Below, piece after piece: positions 38,439 through 48,385 of a stretch of DNA of 64,000 nucleotides. The DNA comes from Planomonospora sp. ID67723 (GTDB taxonomy: Bacteria > Actinomycetota > Actinomycetes > Streptosporangiales > Streptosporangiaceae). The translations under genes were made by a program, and so were the position numbers. Where the stretch lies: contig NZ_JABTEZ010000001.1 in the NCBI RefSeq assembly GCF_015711605.1, forward strand, positions 2,012,001 to 2,076,000, written 5' to 3'. The notes under the pieces are model-generated. The model was not told the DNA's origin. It did not search any database and was given only the letters and a program-made list of their open reading frames with translations. The stretch's first letter is position 1, and the number at the start of each line of letters is the position of its first letter.

Positions 38439-41066
38439 ATGAGCGTTAACCCCACCGACGCCGCGATGCGCAGGGCACTGGCCCGCGCCCGTGACGGCAA
38501 GACCCTCGACCAGGCCGAGGCCACCGTGCTGCTGCACGCCAGGGGAGAGGACCTGGACGTCCTGCTCGGCCACGCCGGGCGGGTCAGGGACGCGGGTCTG
38601 CAGGCCGCCGGGCGGCCCGGGACCATCACCTACAGCCGCAAGGTCTTCATCCCGCTGACCCGGCTCTGCCGGGACCGCTGCGGATACTGCACGTTCGCCA
38701 CCGCACCGCACAAGCTCGACAGCGCGTTCCTCAGCCCGGACGAGGTCCTTGCGATCGCCCGGCAGGGCGCGGCGATGGGATGCAAGGAGGCGCTGTTCAC
38801 GCTGGGCGACCGGCCGGAGGAGCGCTGGCACCAGGCCCGCGAGTGGCTGGATGCGCACGGCTACGACGACACGCTCTCCTACGTGCGCGCGATGGCGATC
38901 CGGGTCCTGGAGGAGACCGGGCTGCTGCCGCACCTCAACCCCGGAGTCATGACCTGGCGGGACCTGCAGCGCCTCAAGCCGGTCGCGCCGTCGATGGGCA
39001 TGATGCTGGAGACGACCTCGCGCCGGCTGTTCGAGGAGAAGGGGCAGCCGCACCACGGCTCCCCGGACAAGGATCCCGCCGTGCGGCTGCGCGTCCTGGA
39101 GGACGCCGGGCGCTCCAACGTCCCCTTCACCAGCGGCATCCTGATCGGCATCGGCGAGACGATCGAGGACAGGGCCGAGTCGCTGTTCGCACTGCGGAAG
39201 GTGGCCCGCGAGTACGGCGGGCTCCAGGAGGTCATCGTCCAGAACTTCCGCGCCAAGCCGGACACCGCGATGCGCGGCATGCCCGACGCCGACCTGCAGG
39301 AGCTGGCCGCCACGATCGCGGTGGCCCGCCTGGTGCTGGGGCCGAAGGCCCGCCTGCAGGCCCCGCCGAACCTGGTCGAGTCCGAGTACGACCTGATGAT
39401 CCGTGCCGGGATCGACGACTGGGGCGGGGTCTCCCCGCTCACCCCCGACCACGTCAACCCCGAGCGTCCCTGGCCGCAGATCGACGAGCTCGCCGCCCGC
39501 ACCGCCGCCTCCGGGTTCACGCTGCGGGAGCGCCTTACGATCTACCCCGAGTACGTGCTCGCCGGGGAGCCCTGGCTCGACCCCCGCCTGAACGCCCACG
39601 TCGCCGCCCTCGCCGACCCGCGGACCGGCCTGGCCCGCGAGGACGCCGAGATCGTCGGCCGCCCCTGGCAGGAGCCCGACGGGGGCGTCAACGGGGGCGT
39701 CAACGGGGGCTGGGCCTCGCTCGGCCGCACCGACCTGCACACGGCGGTGGACGCCGAGGGGCGCTCCGCCGACCGCCGCGACGACTTCGACCACGTCTAC
39801 GGCGACTGGGAGGCCCTGAAGGACCGCCTCCCAGTCGCTTCGGGGACCGGTGGGGGCATGTCGCGGCTGGGGGAGGCCGGTGAGGCGCTGCGCCGGGCGG
39901 AGAGCGACCCCGCCGGGCTGACCGAGGCGCAGGCCCTGACCCTGCTCGGGCTCGCCGGGGACGCGGACGGCGCGGGGGCGGACGACGCGGCCCTGGACGA
40001 GCTGTGCCGGATCGCCGACGGCCTGCGCCGGGAGGCGGTGGGGGACGACGTCACCTACGTGGTCAACCGGAACATCAACTTCACCAACGTCTGCTATACC
40101 GGCTGCCGGTTCTGCGCCTTCGCGCAGCGCCGCAGTGACGCCGACGCCTACACCCTCTCGCTCGACCAGGTCGCGGACCGGGCGCAGGAGGGCTGGCAGG
40201 CCGGGGCGACCGAGGTGTGCATGCAGGGCGGCATCCACCCCGACCTGCCCGGCACCGCCTACTTCGACATCGCCCGTGCGGTCAAGGCGCGCGTCCCGGA
40301 GATGCACGTCCACGCGTTCTCCCCGATGGAGGTCGTCAACGGCGCCAGCCGTACGAACCTGTCCGTCGAGGACTGGCTGACCGCCGCGAAGGAGGCGGGG
40401 GTGGACTCGCTGCCCGGCACCGCGGCGGAGATCCTCGACGACGACGTGCGCTGGGTGCTGACCAAGGGCAAGCTGCCCGCCGCCGAGTGGGTCGAGGTCA
40501 TCACCACCGCCCACCGGCTGGGCATCCCGACCACGGCGACGATGATGTACGGCCACGTGGACACCCACGCCCACTGGGTCCGGCACATCCGGCTCATCCG
40601 CCGCATCCAGGAGGAGACCGGCGGGTTCACCGAGTTCGTGCCGCTGCCGTTCGTCCACCACAGCGCCCCCATCTACCTCGCCGGAATCGCGCGTCCCGGC
40701 CCGACCGCGCGGGAGAACCGGGCCGTGCACGCGCTGGCCCGCATCCTGCTGCACGGCGTGATCCCCAACATCCAGTGCTCCTGGGTGAAGCTCCGCGACG
40801 ACCTGTGCCGCCAGGTGCTGCAGGGCGGGGTCAACGACCTGGGCGGCACGCTGATGGAGGAGACGATCAGCCGGATGGCCGGGTCGGAGAACGGCTCGTT
40901 CAAAACGATCAGCGACATCGCGGCGATGGTCGCCCCGACCGGGCGGCCGCTCCGGCAGCGGACCACCTCGTACGGCGTGCCGGACGGGGAACGGCTGGCC
41001 GCGGCCAGGGCGAGCGACGGAGTTTGTCAAAGTGTGCGTAACTTTGTGCCGCTAGATCGTCTATAA
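38439..41066 (+). CDS. fbiC: FO synthase, fused CofG-CofH (7,8-didemethyl-8-hydroxy-5-deazariboflavin synthase)
   Basis: 875 residues with two radical SAM domains. CofG half: CRDRCGYC at 77-84 (C77, C81, C84). CofH half: CYTGCRFC at 552-559. The halves join through a linker containing a VNGG repeat (about 415-424). The enzyme makes the deazaflavin chromophore of coenzyme F420 from tyrosine and the pyrimidine 5-amino-6-ribitylamino-uracil. The fused form is typical of actinobacteria. It faces fbiA-fbiB on the opposite strand 2.2 kb away. The start ATG 38439 is the first that keeps the CofG N-terminus. Confidence 0.97.
39681..39710. repeat. 12-bp tandem repeat in the fbiC linker
   Basis: Two and a half copies of GGGGGCGTCAAC encode Gly-Val-Asn-Gly repeats between the CofG and CofH halves. 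This is probably a flexible linker with variable copy number. Confidence 0.8.
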
Positions 41067-41141: not shown

Positions 41142-42902
41142 TTGTCTTCCTCACCCGGTCGACACCGCGTGGCCGCCGGCGCCGAGAGGCGTCGCCGGCA
41201 GGCGCGCCAACGTCTCACGCTCACCGCGATCGCGCTGGCAGTGGCGCTGGCCGGGGCCGCGGTGCTGGCCGTGGACCGCGCGAACGGACCCTGCGGCGGC
41301 GATCCGATCCTGGTCGACGTCGCCGCCGCGGTGGACGTCGCACCGACCGTGATGGAGGCGGCCGGGCGGTTCAACGCCGCCAAGACCGAGGTCGAGGGGC
41401 GGTGCGTGCTGGTACAGGTTACGGAGCAGCCGCCTGCCACGGTGCTGCGCACGCTGATCGGCGGCACCGCGGGCGTGCTGGCGGCCCGCCCCGACGGCTG
41501 GATCTCCGACTCCTCCGCGTGGATCCGCCTCGCGCGCAAGCAGGGGGCCGAGGACCTGGCGGGGACCGAGACCGTGGTGGCCACCTCGCCCCTCGTCTTC
41601 GCCACCCGAAAGTCCCTCGCCGACCGTTTCGCGGTCGGCGAGACCGACATGAACTGGCGGATGGTCTTCCCCGCGACCACCCGGGGCCGGGTCAAGCCCA
41701 ACGAGAACGAGCCCGACGTGGTCCGCGTCCCGGACCCGTCGCTCGCCGGGGCCGGCATCGCCACCGTGGCCGCCGCCCGGGACGTGGTGGGCACCGGGCC
41801 CGAAGCCGACCAGGCGCTCACCGCGTTCGTGCGCTGGGCCCAGGCGGGAGCGGCGCCCGACTACCGGAGCATGGTCGAGGCGGTGGACGAGCGCTCCTTC
41901 TGGCAGCGCCCGGTCGTGATCGTCCCGGAGCAGTCCGTGTGGTTCCACAACCGGCAGCCCTCCGCCGACCCGCTCGTCGCGCTCCACCCCCGCGAGGGGA
42001 CCATCAACCTCGACTACCCCTACGTGGTCACCTCCGGTGACCCGGCCAAGGCGGGCGGGTCGCGGGCCTTCGCCGCCTGGCTCCGCTCCCCGGAGACCCA
42101 GGACGCGGTACGGCGGGCGGGCTTCCGCTCGGCCGACGGCAGCCAGGGTCCCTACTCGCCCGGACCGGAGATCCCCACCGTTTCGCCCCGCACCCGCCCC
42201 ACCATCCTGCCCGCCAGGATCGACGAGGCGCTGGAGGCCTGGAGCAGGCTGGCCCCGCCGACCAACATCCTCGTCCTGGCCGACGTCTCCGAGCGCATGG
42301 CCGAGCAGATCAAGGGACAGAAGGGCAAGACCCGGCTCACCGTCGCGCTCGACGCCGCCCGGCTGGGCCTGCAGCTCTTCCCCGACTCGACCCACATGGG
42401 CATGTGGGAGTTCGCCGACGCCAAGGGCTCCGGCGACGACCAGCGGGAACGGGTGAAGATCGGCCCGATCACCGAGCCGGACGGCGGGCAGGTCATCCGC
42501 CGAAGCCGCCTGGAGGAGCTCACCCGGACCCTGCGCGCCGACCCCAAGAAGGGCAGCTCCCTGCACGACTCGATCCTCGCCGGGTTCCGCGAGGTGACCG
42601 GCGCCTACGACGAGCGGATGAACAACACCCTGCTGGTCATCACCGCGGGCAAGGACGACGGCAGGGGCCTGTCCGGCACGGAGCTGGTCGAGAAGCTCCG
42701 GCAGGAGTGGGACCCGGCCTATCCGGTGCAGATCGTCATCCTCGCCTTCGGCGACGACCTCGACCGCTCCCTCCTCTCCCAGGTCGTCTCGGCCACCAAC
42801 GGATCGCTCCACGTCGCCCGGGAGCCCGGCGAGATCATCGACGTCTTCCTCTCCGCCCTGGCCCGCCGGCTGTGCCACCCCACCTGCCGCACGGCCTCGT
42901 AA
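41142..42902 (+). CDS. Membrane-anchored solute-binding-like protein with C-terminal VWA domain
   Basis: 586 residues, TTG start after GAGAGG. An N-terminal helix (LTAIALAVALAGAAVLAVD) anchors or exports it. Residues about 55-330 resemble an extracellular solute-binding fold (PTVMEAAGRFNAAK, ATSPLVFATRKSLADRF). Residues about 370-575 form a von Willebrand A domain: NILVLADVSERM at the MIDAS site, GMWEFAD, LLVITAGKDDG. The MIDAS D-x-S-x-S reads DVSER, so metal binding may be altered. The substrate is unknown; such fusions may present ligands to surface partners. It sits between fbiC and fbiB with no obvious tie to F420. Confidence 0.82.
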   Translation: MSSSPGRHRVAAGAERRRRQARQRLTLTAIALAVALAGAAVLAVDRANGPCGGDPILVDVAAAVDVAPTVMEAAGRFNAAKTEVEGRCVLVQVTEQPPATVLRTLIGGTAGVLAARPDGWISDSSAWIRLARKQGAEDLAGTETVVATSPLVFATRKSLADRFAVGETDMNWRMVFPATTRGRVKPNENEPDVVRVPDPSLAGAGIATVAAARDVVGTGPEADQALTAFVRWAQAGAAPDYRSMVEAVDERSFWQRPVVIVPEQSVWFHNRQPSADPLVALHPREGTINLDYPYVVTSGDPAKAGGSRAFAAWLRSPETQDAVRRAGFRSADGSQGPYSPGPEIPTVSPRTRPTILPARIDEALEAWSRLAPPTNILVLADVSERMAEQIKGQKGKTRLTVALDAARLGLQLFPDSTHMGMWEFADAKGSGDDQRERVKIGPITEPDGGQVIRRSRLEELTRTLRADPKKGSSLHDSILAGFREVTGAYDERMNNTLLVITAGKDDGRGLSGTELVEKLRQEWDPAYPVQIVILAFGDDLDRSLLSQVVSATNGSLHVAREPGEIIDVFLSALARRLCHPTCRTAS

Positions 42903-43222: not shown

Positions 43223-44545
43223 TCAGCGGGTGACGATGAAGTCGGCGGCCTTCCTGGGGGCGCGGCTGCGGGGCGGGGCGGCGGGGTGGCCGACGGCGAC
43301 GGCGCCCATCGGGTCCCACGTCGCGGGGAGGTCGAGGACCTCGCGGACCACGTCACGGCAGAACATGGTGGAGGAGACCCACGCCGAGCCGAGGCCCTCC
43401 ACCGCGAGCTGGACCAGGAAGTTCTGCACGCCCGCGCCGGTGGCGACCACGAACATCTCCCGCTCGGCGGCGTTGCGGCGCTCGTCGCGGTAGGTGTGCG
43501 AGCCCTCCATGACCAGGCACGGGACCGCCAGGTACGGGGCGTCCCGCAGCACGTCGCCGCGCTTGATCCGCCTGGCGATCGACTCCTCGGAGAAGCCGTC
43601 CCCGCGCAGGTCGGCGATCCACGCCTCGCGCATGGCGTCGAGCAGCTTCTCCCGGACCTCCGCCGACTCCAGCAGCACGAACCGCCACGGCGTCGTGTGG
43701 TGCGGGGCGGGCGCCGCGATCGCGGCGTCCACCGCGCGGCGGACCCTCGCGCCGTCGACCGGCTCGGAGGAGAACTCCCGGATGGTACGGCGGGCGAAGA
43801 GCACGTCGCGGGAGCCGTACCGGAACATGTCCTCCTCCGACGGGCGGATCATCTCGCCGACGCCCGGGCCGTCCTCCTCCGCGGTGGCACCGGCCAGGCC
43901 GCGGACGACCGCCACCGGGGTGCCGGCGAGCTTGCCCTTGACGAGGTCACCGGCGGCGGCGAGCTCGTCGGCGACCGCGGTCAGGGTGACCTCCAGCGCG
44001 TTGCCGTGCCCGTCGCGGCCACCCCGGTAGTCGAGCATCGGCGGCACTCCGGCGACGCCGACGGCCAGGTCGGTCTGGCCGTTGCGCCAGGGGCGGCCGA
44101 AGGTGTCGGAGACGACCACGCCGACCGAGACGCCGAGCCGCTCCCGCAGGCCCGCACGCAGGGCCCTGGCGGAGGCGTCGGGGTCGGCGGGCAGCAGCAC
44201 GACGGTGCCCGGCTCGGTGTTGGAGGCGTCCACCCCGGCGGCGGCCATGACGAAGCCGTGGGACGTCTGCGCGATCACGGTCTCGCCCCGCCGGGCGACG
44301 ACGCGCACGGTCTCGTCCTCGATCGCCTCGGCGCGGCCGGTGGCCCGGCGGACCCGGCCCTCGGCCTTGCTCACGATTTTGGAGGTGACCACGAGGATGT
44401 CGCCGTCGCGCAGGCCGGGGCAGGCCGCGGCGACCAGCGCGGCGAGGTCGTCGCCCTCGCGCACCTCGGGGATGCCGCCGGCCGCGAAGACCTCGATGCG
44501 GGCCTCGGCGGGGGCGTCCGACCCCGGGTTCGGGATCCCGCTCAC
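43223..44545 (-). CDS. fbiB: F420:gamma-glutamyl ligase fused to FMN nitroreductase-like domain
   Basis: 440 residues, GTG overlapping the fbiA stop. The N-terminal CofE-type ligase (about 15-245) has [35 protein letters not shown] and [21 protein letters not shown]. The C-terminal nitroreductase-like domain (about 250-440) has [28 protein letters not shown] and [13 protein letters not shown]. In actinobacteria FbiB adds the poly-gamma-glutamate tail and reduces dehydro-F420-0. It is co-transcribed with fbiA. Confidence 0.96.
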
Positions 44546-45495
44546 CGTGCGTCCTCCGTGCCCGCGAGCTCGGCGGCCAGGCCGAGGGCGGCGCGCGCGA
44601 TGGCGGCGGCCGCCTCCACGTCGTGCATGATCAGCGGGCGGCCCCGGACCTGGACGCCGTCCAGGCTCACCCCGGCGTCCTCCTCGGCGACCAGCCAGCC
44701 GTTCACCAGCGGCGACCCGTACAGCTCCAGGACGGCCTGGGCGGTGGTCTCCACCCCGATCGCGGCCAGGCAGGCGTCGGCCATGCCGCGCACCGGGGCG
44801 CCGCCGACGATGGGGGAGACGCCGACGACGGTCTTGCCCTCGAGGGCCTCGCGGATGCCCTTGATCTGCAGGATCGTGCCGATGCTGACCACCGGGTTGG
44901 ACGGAGGCATGATCACGGCGTCGGCCTCGGCGATGGCCTGGAGCACGCCGGGGGCGGGCCGGGCCTCGTCGGCGCCGACCAGGATGATCTGCTCGGCCGG
45001 GATCGAGGCGCGCAGGCGGACCCACCACTCCTGGAAGTGCACGGCCCGACGGCCCCGATCGTCGGTGATCACGACGTGGGTCTCGGTCCGGTCGTCGCTC
45101 ATCGGGATCAGCCGCACGCCCGGCTGCCAGCGGGCGCACAACGCCTCGGTCACCTGGGAGAGGGGGTATCCGGCGTCGAGCATCTGGGTGCGCACGATGT
45201 GGGTGGCGAAGTCGCGGTCGCCCAGACCGAACCACTGCGGCTCGACGCCGTAGGCGGCGAGCTCCTCCTTGACGGTGTGGGTCTCCTTGTCGCGGCCCCA
45301 GCCCTGCTCCTCGTTGATGCCGCCGCCGAGGGTGTACATCACCGTGTCGAGGTCGGGACAGACCCGCAGGCCGTACAGGGTGATGTCGTCACCGGTGTTG
45401 CCGATGACGGTGATCTCGGCGTCGGGGGCCGCGGCGCGGAGGCCGCGCAGGAAACGGGCGCCGCCGATGCCGCCGGCGAGGGACACGATGCGCAT
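44542..45495 (-). CDS. fbiA: 2-phospho-L-lactate / phosphoenolpyruvyl transferase (CofD family)
   Basis: 317 residues beginning [19 protein letters not shown], the CofD nucleotide-sugar-like motif. Further family marks are [52 protein letters not shown] and [17 protein letters not shown]. It joins an activated three-carbon acid to FO, giving (dehydro-)F420-0. It heads the fbiA-fbiB operon; upstream lies a 239-bp shared region with two inverted repeats. Confidence 0.96.
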
Positions 45496-45652: not shown

Positions 45653-45734
45653 ACGAGATTCATGTGCTTCCTGGGTCCACCGACAGCAAAGTCGGCCATG
45701 TGCAAAACTTGGCCCGGGTTTACCCGAGGACCCT

Positions 45735-47897
45735 ATGGGGGTAGTTGTGATCAATGTCGAGGCCGGACGACTTCGAGAGCCGGCCGCATGGCTCATGGTC
45801 GCCACGGCGTCCGGAAGCGTTCTCGTCGGCATCGAGCGGCTGCTCTTCGGCGGGTCGTCATTCGGTGAGGCGTCCTTCGCCGTCCGCGCGGCCGGCTATC
45901 TGTCGAACCTGACCTCGCCGGTGACCGTCGCCCTGCTGGTCGGGGCGGTGCTGCTGGCCGGCGACCTCGGCCCGGCGATCCGCCGGCTGAAGCCGATGGT
46001 CTACGTGGCGGTGGGCACGCTCGGGCTCGCGGTGCTCTTCGGCGTGATCGGCCTGCTGGGCGGGGTGTTCACCGGCGCGACGGACTTCCTGGAGAAGGTG
46101 GAGTTCCTCCTCGTCCACGTCCCGCTCCTCGGGCTGACCGCCCTCGCCCTGCTGTACCTGCTGCCGAAGGCCATGCCGGCCGCGCCCCGGGCGGGCGGCT
46201 TCCACTCCGCCCCGGAGGTCGGCGGATCCGTGGGGTTCCGCCCCGACGGCGGCCTGGGCGGGAACCCGCAGCACTACCAGCCCTCCTCCGCGCCCGCCCC
46301 GGCGCCGCAGGCCCCGTTCCAGGCCCCCCAGCCCCAGGAGCAGGCGCCCTACGCGCCGCAGGGCCAGGCGCAGGCGCCCTACGCGCCGCAGGGCCAGGCG
46401 CAGGGTGCCGCCGCCTTCCAGCAGGAGCCTCCGGCCTTCCCGCAGGGCAACCCGGCCCCGGCCTTCCACCAGGAGCCCGCGGCTCCCGCCTTCCAGCAGG
46501 AGGCCCCCGGTGCGCCGTACGGCCAGCCGGCGCTCCCGCCCGCGCCGGGACACGCCGAGCCGTACGGCCGGCAGCCGGGCAGCGGCTTCGCCTCCCAGGA
46601 GAACGCCTACGCCCCCCGGCCGGACGACGTCTACGCCGCCCCGGCCTTCCCGGCCCAGGACTCCTCGTACGGCGCCTCCGCCGAGGGCCCGTCCTACGGC
46701 GCCCAGCACTCCGGCTACGGCCAGGCACCGGCGCAGCCGGAACCGCAGGTCTACACCCCGAGCCCGTACGTCGCGGCGGACGTCCAGCCCCCGGCCCCGG
46801 CCACGTCGTACGAGCCGCCGATGAGCGCCTACGATCCGCCGGCCCCGGCCTACTCCGCCCCGGCCGAGCAGCAGGGGTACGGCGAGCAGCAGCCGTCCTA
46901 CACGCCGTCGCCGACCGACCCCCAGCTCTCCTCCTACGGCCAGCAGTCGGGGCCCTCGTTCTCCTCCTACGGTCAGCAGGACTCTCAGTCCTACGGTCAG
47001 CAGGATTCCCAGTCCTACGGTCAGCAGGATTCCCAGTCCTACGGTCAGCAGGATTCCCAGTCCTACGGTCAGCAGGATTCCCAGTCCTACGGTCAGCAGG
47101 ATTCCCAGTCCTACGGTCAGCAGGACTCCCAGTTCCCGGCCTACACCCCCGCGCAGACGGAACCCCAGCTCCCCTCGTACGGCCAGCAGCCGGACTCGCT
47201 CCCGTCGTACGCGCAGGCCCAGCCCGAGCAGCAGGTCCCGTTCTACGAGCCGCAGGTTCCCGCCGCCCAGCCGTACACCCCCGCCGACAGCCAGCCGCGC
47301 CTGCCCTTCGACGGCCAGGACCGGTCCTCCTTCCCGCAGCCGCCGGAGAACTACGGCCAGCCTCTGACCGGCTACTCCGGCGCGGAGTTCGCCCGGCAGA
47401 ACGAGCCGGAGCCGCACTACCCGGCGCCGGACCCGGTGGACGCCCGTTCCCAGCAGATCGCCCACGCCTACCAGCAGGCGGAGAACTACCAGCAGCAGTC
47501 CCAGGGCGCCGAGCCTCCGCTGCGGGTGCCGGAGTACACCGCCTCCCAGACGGGCGGCTACGACCAGGGCGGCTATGACCAGGGCGGCTACGACTCCTCC
47601 TTCGGGCACCCGCAGACGTCGCAAAGCGGGCCGTCCTGGGAGACACCGCCCGCCGAGGCGACGCTCCGCTTCGACCCGAGCGCCTACCAGGGTGACCCGC
47701 TGAGCGGGCCGGCCCCTGCCGCGCCTGCCGCCCCCGCTTCCCCGACCTGGGATTCCCAGCCCATCGACCCCACGGCGATCTACACGCCGGAGCGTTCGGG
47801 TCAGGCAATGGCAGAGGAAAACGGGGATAGAGAAAGGGTGGGCCCCGGTCAGGATCAGAACACGTCCTGGTACGGTTCCGACCGAAGAGAGCACTGA
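45735..47897 (+). CDS. Four-helix membrane protein with long Pro/Gln/Tyr-rich repeat tail
   Basis: 720 residues from ATG 45735 (GAGGA close upstream); GTG 45747 after GGGGG is an alternative. The first 150 residues hold four membrane helices (AAWLMVATASGSVLVG, VTVALLVGAVLLAGDL, VYVAVGTLGLAVLFGVIGLL, LLVHVPLLGLTALALLYLLP). The remaining 550 are low-complexity, rich in Pro, Gln, Tyr, Ser and Ala, including seven SYGQQDSQ units and two QAPYAPQGQA units. Composition resembles phase-separating, prion-like tails. Such PQ-rich tails occur on actinobacterial growth-zone proteins, so a scaffold role is possible (inference). It lies between the F420 genes and whiB. Confidence 0.8.
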   Translation: MGVVVINVEAGRLREPAAWLMVATASGSVLVGIERLLFGGSSFGEASFAVRAAGYLSNLTSPVTVALLVGAVLLAGDLGPAIRRLKPMVYVAVGTLGLAVLFGVIGLLGGVFTGATDFLEKVEFLLVHVPLLGLTALALLYLLPKAMPAAPRAGGFHSAPEVGGSVGFRPDGGLGGNPQHYQPSSAPAPAPQAPFQAPQPQEQAPYAPQGQAQAPYAPQGQAQGAAAFQQEPPAFPQGNPAPAFHQEPAAPAFQQEAPGAPYGQPALPPAPGHAEPYGRQPGSGFASQENAYAPRPDDVYAAPAFPAQDSSYGASAEGPSYGAQHSGYGQAPAQPEPQVYTPSPYVAADVQPPAPATSYEPPMSAYDPPAPAYSAPAEQQGYGEQQPSYTPSPTDPQLSSYGQQSGPSFSSYGQQDSQSYGQQDSQSYGQQDSQSYGQQDSQSYGQQDSQSYGQQDSQSYGQQDSQFPAYTPAQTEPQLPSYGQQPDSLPSYAQAQPEQQVPFYEPQVPAAQPYTPADSQPRLPFDGQDRSSFPQPPENYGQPLTGYSGAEFARQNEPEPHYPAPDPVDARSQQIAHAYQQAENYQQQSQGAEPPLRVPEYTASQTGGYDQGGYDQGGYDSSFGHPQTSQSGPSWETPPAEATLRFDPSAYQGDPLSGPAPAAPAAPASPTWDSQPIDPTAIYTPERSGQAMAEENGDRERVGPGQDQNTSWYGSDRREH
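46341..46400. repeat. Two perfect 30-bp tandem units
   Basis: Two identical 30-bp copies (46341-46370 and 46371-46400) encode the QAPYAPQGQA repeat in the Gln/Pro-rich tail. Confidence 0.9.
46965..47132. repeat. Seven tandem 24-bp units encoding SYGQQDSQ
   Basis: Seven head-to-tail 24-bp units. Units 2-6 are identical; units 1 and 7 differ by one or two silent bases. All are in frame and encode Ser-Tyr-Gly-Gln-Gln-Asp-Ser-Gln. DNA identity in the middle units points to recent expansion. Confidence 0.95.
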
Positions 47898-48124: not shown

Positions 48125-48385
48125 GTGGCCGACCTGGTCATCGCACAGGACAGCATCGCTGAAGAGCAGCTTGGCTGGCAGGAACGCGCGCTGTGCGCGC
48201 AGACCGATCCGGAGGCGTTCTTCCCTGAAAAGGGAGGATCCACTCGGGAGGCCAAGAAGGTGTGCCGGTCCTGTGAGGTGCGTGCGGAGTGTCTTGAGTA
48301 CGCACTTGAACATGACGAGAGGTTCGGCATATGGGGAGGGCTGTCCGAGCGGGAACGCCGCCGGATCAAGCGCCAGGCCGTCTGA
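48125..48385 (+). CDS. whiB: WhiB-family Fe-S transcription regulator (WhiB/WhiB2 type)
   Basis: 86 residues, GTG start. The four iron-sulfur cysteines are C24, C47, C50 and C56 (C-x22-C-x2-C-x5-C), followed by the family turn FGIWGGLSERERRRIKR with its basic DNA-contact tail. WhiB-like proteins bind a 4Fe-4S cluster and act with the principal sigma factor. The genomic position next to fbiA-fbiB and the GT2-membrane gene matches mycobacterial whiB2 and streptomycete whiB, both needed for septation/sporulation. It has its own promoter and a strong terminator. Confidence 0.95.
   Translation: MADLVIAQDSIAEEQLGWQERALCAQTDPEAFFPEKGGSTREAKKVCRSCEVRAECLEYALEHDERFGIWGGLSERERRRIKRQAV

Follow-up and report, generated by a model that had tools for sequence, protein, structure and literature searches.

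A four-helix membrane protein encoded between cofD and whiB has a tail with evenly spaced aromatic residues and changing tandem repeats

The gene between cofD and a whiB-family gene in Planomonospora sp. ID67723 encodes a four-helix membrane protein with a long Pro/Gln/Tyr-rich tail. It belongs to an unannotated family, one whose general kind is known, in which the tandem repeats of the tail differ between species and the tail aromatics are evenly spaced in most members. We analyzed a window of 64,000 nucleotides (NZ_JABTEZ010000001.1, positions 2,012,001 to 2,076,000), and its features are listed in Table 1. Our preferred interpretation, held tentatively and at slightly less than even chances, is that the protein represents an uncharacterised family of membrane-anchored scaffolds with a self-associating cytoplasmic tail in Streptosporangiaceae-type actinomycetes. 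The preliminary description of this DNA had centered on seven repeats in the tail, and our results move the emphasis to the family as a whole.

Table 1. Features of the gene, its tail and its immediate neighbors (positions in the window)
Feature	Coordinates	Strand	Detail or basis
cofD/fbiA, divergent neighbor	44542..45495	-	Pfam CofD 9.6e-59, TIGR01819
Conserved 5′ leader	45676..45731	+	Alignment, n=13 (window and 12 near relatives)
Four-helix/tail gene	45735..47897	+	720 aa from ATG 45735; 716 aa from GTG 45747
N-terminal membrane domain, residues 5-150, four helices	45747..46184	+	Conservation, hydropathy, AlphaFold2
Pro/Gln/Tyr-rich tail, residues 151-720, predicted disordered	46185..47894	+	Composition; AlphaFold2 full-length pLDDT
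Second tail array, 30-bp unit x2.4	46334..46404	+	TRF score 135, second in window
Tail array	46400-46447		TRF
Tail array, 27-bp unit x2.9	46431..46510	+	TRF
(SYGQQDSQ)x7, seven 24-bp units	46965..47132	+	TRF, pattern search; absent from 59 other genomes
Tail island, residues 531-557 (SSFPQPPENYGQPLTGYSGAEFARQNE)	47325..47405	+	Alignments
Tail island with the sole long predicted tail helix (residues 570-590, ARSQQIAHAYQQAENYQQQSQ)	47424..47504	+	Alignments, AlphaFold2
Tail array, 15-bp unit x2.9 (GGYDQ)	47552..47594	+	TRF
Thr motif AEATLRFDP (T643)	47652..47678	+	A640, T643 and D647 invariant in 13 aligned proteins
Thr motif IDPTAIYTP (T680)	47763..47789	+	DPTAIY invariant in 13 aligned proteins; 24/46 in wider set
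C-terminal motif ...NTSWYGSDRREH	47841..47894	+	WY or WW within last 14 residues in 31/46
whiB-family gene, downstream neighbor	48125..48385	+	Pfam Whib 5.9e-28

The repeats themselves are as originally described: the seven 24-bp units, five of them identical at the DNA level, are contiguous and fill their interval exactly. All seven translate to SYGQQDSQ without an amino-acid difference, and relative to the five identical units, unit 1 carries two silent differences and unit 7 carries one. TRF returned 7.0 copies with a 97% match and a score of 317, the best among the 27 rows for the window, and a degenerate pattern for the unit gave 7 matches in the window versus 0 in 100 dinucleotide shuffles. 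Third-position G+C is lower in the array (0.77) than in the rest of the gene (0.93), and the serine codons of the array are TCC/TCT. When 60 genomes were searched for exact matches to one codon pattern, with the first serine restricted to TCN, the unit appeared in the window's own genome and in none of the 59 others, which included the sister species. Within the own genome all 7 matches fall in the one array, and a mobile or multi-copy element was rejected on that count; a conserved functional repeat was likewise rejected, the unit pattern being limited to 1 of 60 genomes. The recent expansion proposed for the array is borne out by the identity of five units. Because the unit turned up in just 1 of the 60 genomes searched, however, the array itself is unlikely to be the functional element.

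What is general is the habit of carrying repeats. Tandem arrays were found in 44 of 46 family genes, the exceptions being L107 and L116, in a set from which the duplicates L078, L079 and L117 and the false matches L101-L104 had been left out. Array density is 3.92 per kb inside the gene versus 0.33 per kb outside it, about 12 times that of the flanks. The period is a multiple of 3 for 315 of 318 arrays in the gene, as compared with 153 of 217 outside, and the top in-gene array outscores the top outside array in 35 of the 46 loci. Judged by eye, the array units differ between species. The window array is one instance of a family-wide habit, and higher-scoring arrays exist elsewhere in the family. 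Nine near relatives have hardly anything that corresponds to residues 411-466, and mean identity to the window over the array columns is 0.14, where the floor is 0.10 since the window counts itself among the ten sequences. At the corresponding alignment position, P. venezuelensis has two TEPQLPSYGGQDPQFSSY blocks instead, and its best in-gene array consists of 1.9 copies of a 96-bp unit. As a separate observation, the Streptosporangium amethystogenes copy (L166:6001-8064) has an apparent frame shift in its repeat-rich tail, either a draft-assembly error or real slippage.

The main rival to the scaffold reading sees in the tail no more than a passive linker or bristle, a role open to any soluble, disordered, hydrophilic polymer. 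On this view the array reflects neutral replication slippage, and only the membrane domain and the short motifs matter. We regard this as possible rather than probable. It gains from the restriction of SYGQQDSQ to one of the 60 genomes searched, from the differences in units between species and from the near-floor identity of the array columns, and also from the variation in tail length, with extremes of 52 and 780 residues and a median of 533 across the 46 fully read genes. Rates of change point the same way. By simple counting on gapped alignments, dN/dS was higher in the tail than in the membrane domain in all four comparisons (0.45 v 0.19, 0.70 v 0.43, 0.48 v 0.46 and 0.62 v 0.40), yet the tail values stayed below 1. 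Against it stand two properties that a passive linker need not keep, a composition in which Tyr averages 7.5% and Cys is absent from all 46 tails, and an even placement of aromatic residues that persists when each tandem array is reduced to a single unit (31 of 37 tails).

The spacing result was obtained by comparing each tail with its own shuffles. With tails of fewer than 120 residues and L166 dropped, Tyr/Phe/Trp were more evenly spaced than in the shuffles (z < -1.64) in 38 of 44 tails; with the limit set at 150 residues the count was 36 of 42. The window tail has a z of -4.47, or -3.87 without the array. For single residue types, the number of evenly spaced tails never exceeded 6 with Gln, Gly, Ala, Ser, Thr or Asp; it reached 11 of 41 with Glu and 17 of 44 with Pro. 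Asp and Glu pooled, however, were even in 24 of 42 tails, and therefore even spacing is strongest for the aromatics and not unique to them. In prion-like domains aromatics are uniformly distributed, and composition and patterning are kept while sequences vary (PMC9748015). Even spacing of aromatics is a pattern described for phase-separating low-complexity domains, and to that extent the preliminary description is supported.

The tail is present much as first described and comprises 570 residues. It is abundant in Pro, Gln, Ala, Ser, Gly and Tyr, with 95 Pro (16.7%), 89 Gln, 42 Tyr, no Cys and no Lys; aromatics number 62 (10.9%). The full-length AlphaFold2 model has pLDDT below 50 for 515 of 720 residues, and it counts as weak because its mean pLDDT is 47.7 and its alignment had 13 rows. 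In this model the tail is predicted to be mostly disordered apart from one long helix at residues 570-590. Mean identity to the window in a ten-sequence alignment, the window counted, is 0.54 for the tail versus 0.76 for the membrane domain, and conserved islands stand out at residues 339-355, 531-557, 564-589, 671-692 and 694-720. Invariant residues in an alignment of 13 proteins lie within the helix and in the surroundings of T643 and T680. Across the wider set of 46 proteins, AYQQA(E/Q)xY occurs in 26 and an acidic-Thr-hydrophobic-Arg pattern in 23; WY/WW is missing from the C-terminus in 15, DPTAIY is missing in 22 and the helix motif in 20.

The four-helix membrane anchor of the preliminary description is backed by both hydropathy and structure prediction. 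Of the 46 family members, 44 have four hydrophobic segments, the window protein among them, and L164 and L169 have three; a conserved RLREPAAW motif lies before helix 1. AlphaFold2 modeled the first 150 residues from a 14-row alignment as four helices, with a mean pLDDT of 82.3 and a pTM of 0.74. With this model Foldseek gave no match at E<=0.001, and the best VIA-align 2 result (Z 10.8, rmsd 3.8 over 115 residues) is in the range that the program's note gives for unrelated helical bundles. A sequence search of the PDB returned a best E of 0.23. Mean K+R over 44 proteins is 2.55 at the N-terminus, 1.09, 2.41 and 0.91 in loops 1-3, and 1.91 at the start of the tail. This charge pattern suggests that the N and C termini are both cytoplasmic.

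The same charges bear on a second alternative, an outward-facing tail that crosses or decorates the cell wall in an adhesin-like or wall-spacing role. Pro-rich, repeat-expanding tails do occur in wall-associated proteins, and NCBIfam returned weak, low-complexity matches to serine-rich adhesins. Those matches reach 11.6-13.3 bits where the cut-offs are 650-2500, however, and the loop charges place the C-terminus inside, so we consider an outward tail very unlikely.

The true start of the gene is more likely to be GTG 45747 than ATG 45735. In relative G013 the position equivalent to the GTG is closely preceded by a TAA in the same frame, and the codon aligned with the ATG is CTG, TTG, GTG or TGG in other relatives. 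Upstream, the leader contains AAGTCGGCCATGTGCAAAACTTGGCCCGGGTTTACCC and is well conserved among the 13 aligned sequences, which include Planomonospora, Planobispora and Streptosporangium; a promoter or RNA element may lie inside it. A sigma-70 promoter scan gave 0 matches. GACAC is the binding sequence of WhiA, and a box of this type was considered and rejected because, counted by eye, only 3 of the 13 sequences have it (the window, L161 and L167) and it is missing from the leader of P. venezuelensis.

The gene and its tail are retained in close relatives, the absence of which had been named as an observation that would count against the original proposal. A profile of the membrane domain matches 305 of the 341 genomes in the window's GTDB family; three of these have two matches and the rest one, and we conclude that the family is nearly always single-copy, as it is in the window's own genome. 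Confirmed loci (13 of 41 pattern matches) come from Planomonospora, Planobispora, Streptosporangium, Nonomuraea and Microbispora, and the nearest relative, from Planomonospora venezuelensis, is 92% identical in the membrane domain. When the class was sampled evenly, the profile matched in 49 of 394 genomes. Eight of these lie outside the family, and three are genuine and adjoin cofD (L098-L100). The others were dropped: judged by eye, G373, G281 and G184 resemble sugar transporters and G286 resembles a membrane protein of the prenyltransferase type, whereas G193 had no ORF at E<=1e-3. Three more genomes from the same order match (G025, G026 and G028), of which the G025 copy is syntenic (L106) and the G026 copy is not (L107).

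The window protein matched 0 Pfam families at E<=1 and came near the cut-off of no NCBIfam model. When 36 family members were compared with Pfam, no family among the best 25 of 41 matched more than 2 members, and the best E was 0.0022. Among the matches listed in a search of the open-licence literature, nothing concerned the family. Division and sporulation have, to our knowledge, been little studied in this group of actinomycetes.

In 45 of 48 loci the gene is flanked by cofD and whiB, in agreement with the conserved position between F420 and whiB genes that had been remarked upon. We mapped genes for FbiC, FbiB, CofD, WhiB, a glycosyltransferase, DUF5719, a zincin-like peptidase, DUF3499 and phosphomannomutase. 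Among these, the closest gene on the preceding side encodes CofD in 47 of 48 loci, and the closest on the following side encodes WhiB in 45; without L078, L079 and L117, which duplicate L159, L161 and L162, the counts are 44 and 42 of 45. L107 has neither neighbor, and in L098 and L099 fbiC lies in between. Elsewhere in these neighborhoods, the glycosyltransferase and DUF5719 genes were not found in five loci (L090, L110, L116, L168 and L171, the last two from Nonomuraea), and there the zincin-like peptidase is the next mapped after whiB. On the other side of cofD in the window, a perfect 12-bp tandem repeat (2.7 copies, 39679-39710) lies within an fbiC-like gene (38439-41066), and the gene at 41142-42902 encodes an extracellular solute-binding domain (SBP_bac_11, 1.6e-22).

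Forty cofD-adjacent loci from other actinobacterial families yielded 0 copies of the gene by HMM (best E 0.71) and 0 candidates by a hydropathy and composition filter that passes 46 of 46 family members. whiB is present in 38 of the 40, with none seen in L176 and L192; L188 and L192 are short contig ends. Judged from this distribution, the four-helix/tail gene is a lineage-specific insertion at an otherwise old cofD-whiB locus, and it is therefore dispensable for WhiB-dependent division in general. The gap between the gene and whiB is 227 bp. Adjacency by itself does not establish a common function or an operon.

We infer a scaffold with a self-associating tail, and with it condensation and a part in division, from the analogy with mycobacterial Rv0954 discussed below and from the role of WhiB, which is essential for developmental division in Streptomyces (PMC4850268). 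On this scaffold reading, four helices with both termini in the cytoplasm would hold a long disordered tail at the inner face of the membrane. Evenly spaced Tyr/Phe/Trp would serve as weak stickers set into a Pro/Gln/Gly/Ala spacer, and the tails could then associate into membrane patches. The fixed motifs (helix 570-590, Thr 643, Thr 680 and the C-terminal WY) would recruit partners, perhaps following phosphorylation by Ser/Thr kinases, and the likely setting would be envelope growth or septation. Arrays such as (SYGQQDSQ)7 would originate by slippage and be tolerated because composition and spacing, and not exact sequence, are under constraint. A more specific version, in which a lineage-specific envelope organiser combines tyrosine-driven condensation at the membrane, spacing that is kept while repeats are replaced, Thr motifs directed to kinases or FHA proteins, and a positional link to WhiB, is in our view unlikely as a whole.

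If the scaffold reading is correct, the family provides a natural series of bacterial tails that share an anchor and a genomic position and carry repeats that arose separately. The sticker-and-spacer idea, in which patterning is conserved and sequence is free, could then be tested both by comparison and in cells, and the family would be a good bacterial test bed for it. The analysis also draws attention to an unannotated whiB-adjacent protein present across most genomes of its GTDB family.

Three known systems invite comparison. SYGQQDSQ has the [G/S]Y[G/S]Q flavor of FET proteins, and the tail had been called prion-like. The term suits it loosely: disorder is predicted and the aromatics are evenly spaced, but the aromatic content falls short of the 15-20% given for prion-like domains (PMC9748015), and proline is high. 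The tail shares with the prion-like domains of eukaryotic RNA-binding proteins a disordered, polar, Tyr-containing character, even aromatics, and a variable sequence with persistent composition and patterning. It differs in being anchored to a membrane and in its 16.7% proline and 10.9% aromatics, and phase separation by the tail is conjectural.

ZipA of Escherichia coli has a single membrane anchor, whereas the present protein has four helices and, in the AlphaFold2 model, no folded domain after the tail. The likeness lies in the combination of membrane attachment with a Pro/Gln-rich cytoplasmic region (PMC8093794).

The closest parallel in layout is Rv0954, which like the present protein has four predicted transmembrane helices followed by a Pro/Gln-rich tail. 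For its family, DUF5336, we used PF17270, which we take to be the Pfam family of Rv0954; the model matched 39 of 197 genomes and was over its cut-off in 23. The tail of Rv0954 is intracellular, and the protein has been proposed as a possible structural scaffold; it localises at mid-cell and binds division proteins, with LamA, PbpA and PknH as interaction partners, and Thr/Ser residues near its C-terminus are phosphorylated (PMC8093794). Its phospho-mutants are reported still to reach the septum, and its deletion to cause no apparent change in morphology, growth or drug sensitivity (PMC8093794). That our protein is a true member or orthologue of this divisome family, moved to the cofD-whiB locus, would account for the common layout and for the acidic-Thr endings of some DUF5336 tails, but it is most improbable: hhalign of the membrane domain with 14 DUF5336 sequences gave a probability of 0.8% over 26 columns, on which orthology was rejected, PF17270 matches neither the protein nor its genome and was not among the best 25 of 41 Pfam families for the 36 members, no CofD turned up near PF17270 matches (some below cut-off) in 20 stretches, each 15-16 kb long, and DUF5336 tails are shorter (108-178 residues in 14 checked) and evenly spaced in aromatics in only 3 of 14. 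Because the families have no profile similarity, we use Rv0954 as an analogy only. Three DUF5336 tails (L118, L124 and L129) end in DPTRAF, DATRAF and DSTRAF, which resemble DPTAIY, hinting that unrelated four-helix membrane proteins may share a docking motif for kinases or of FHA type.
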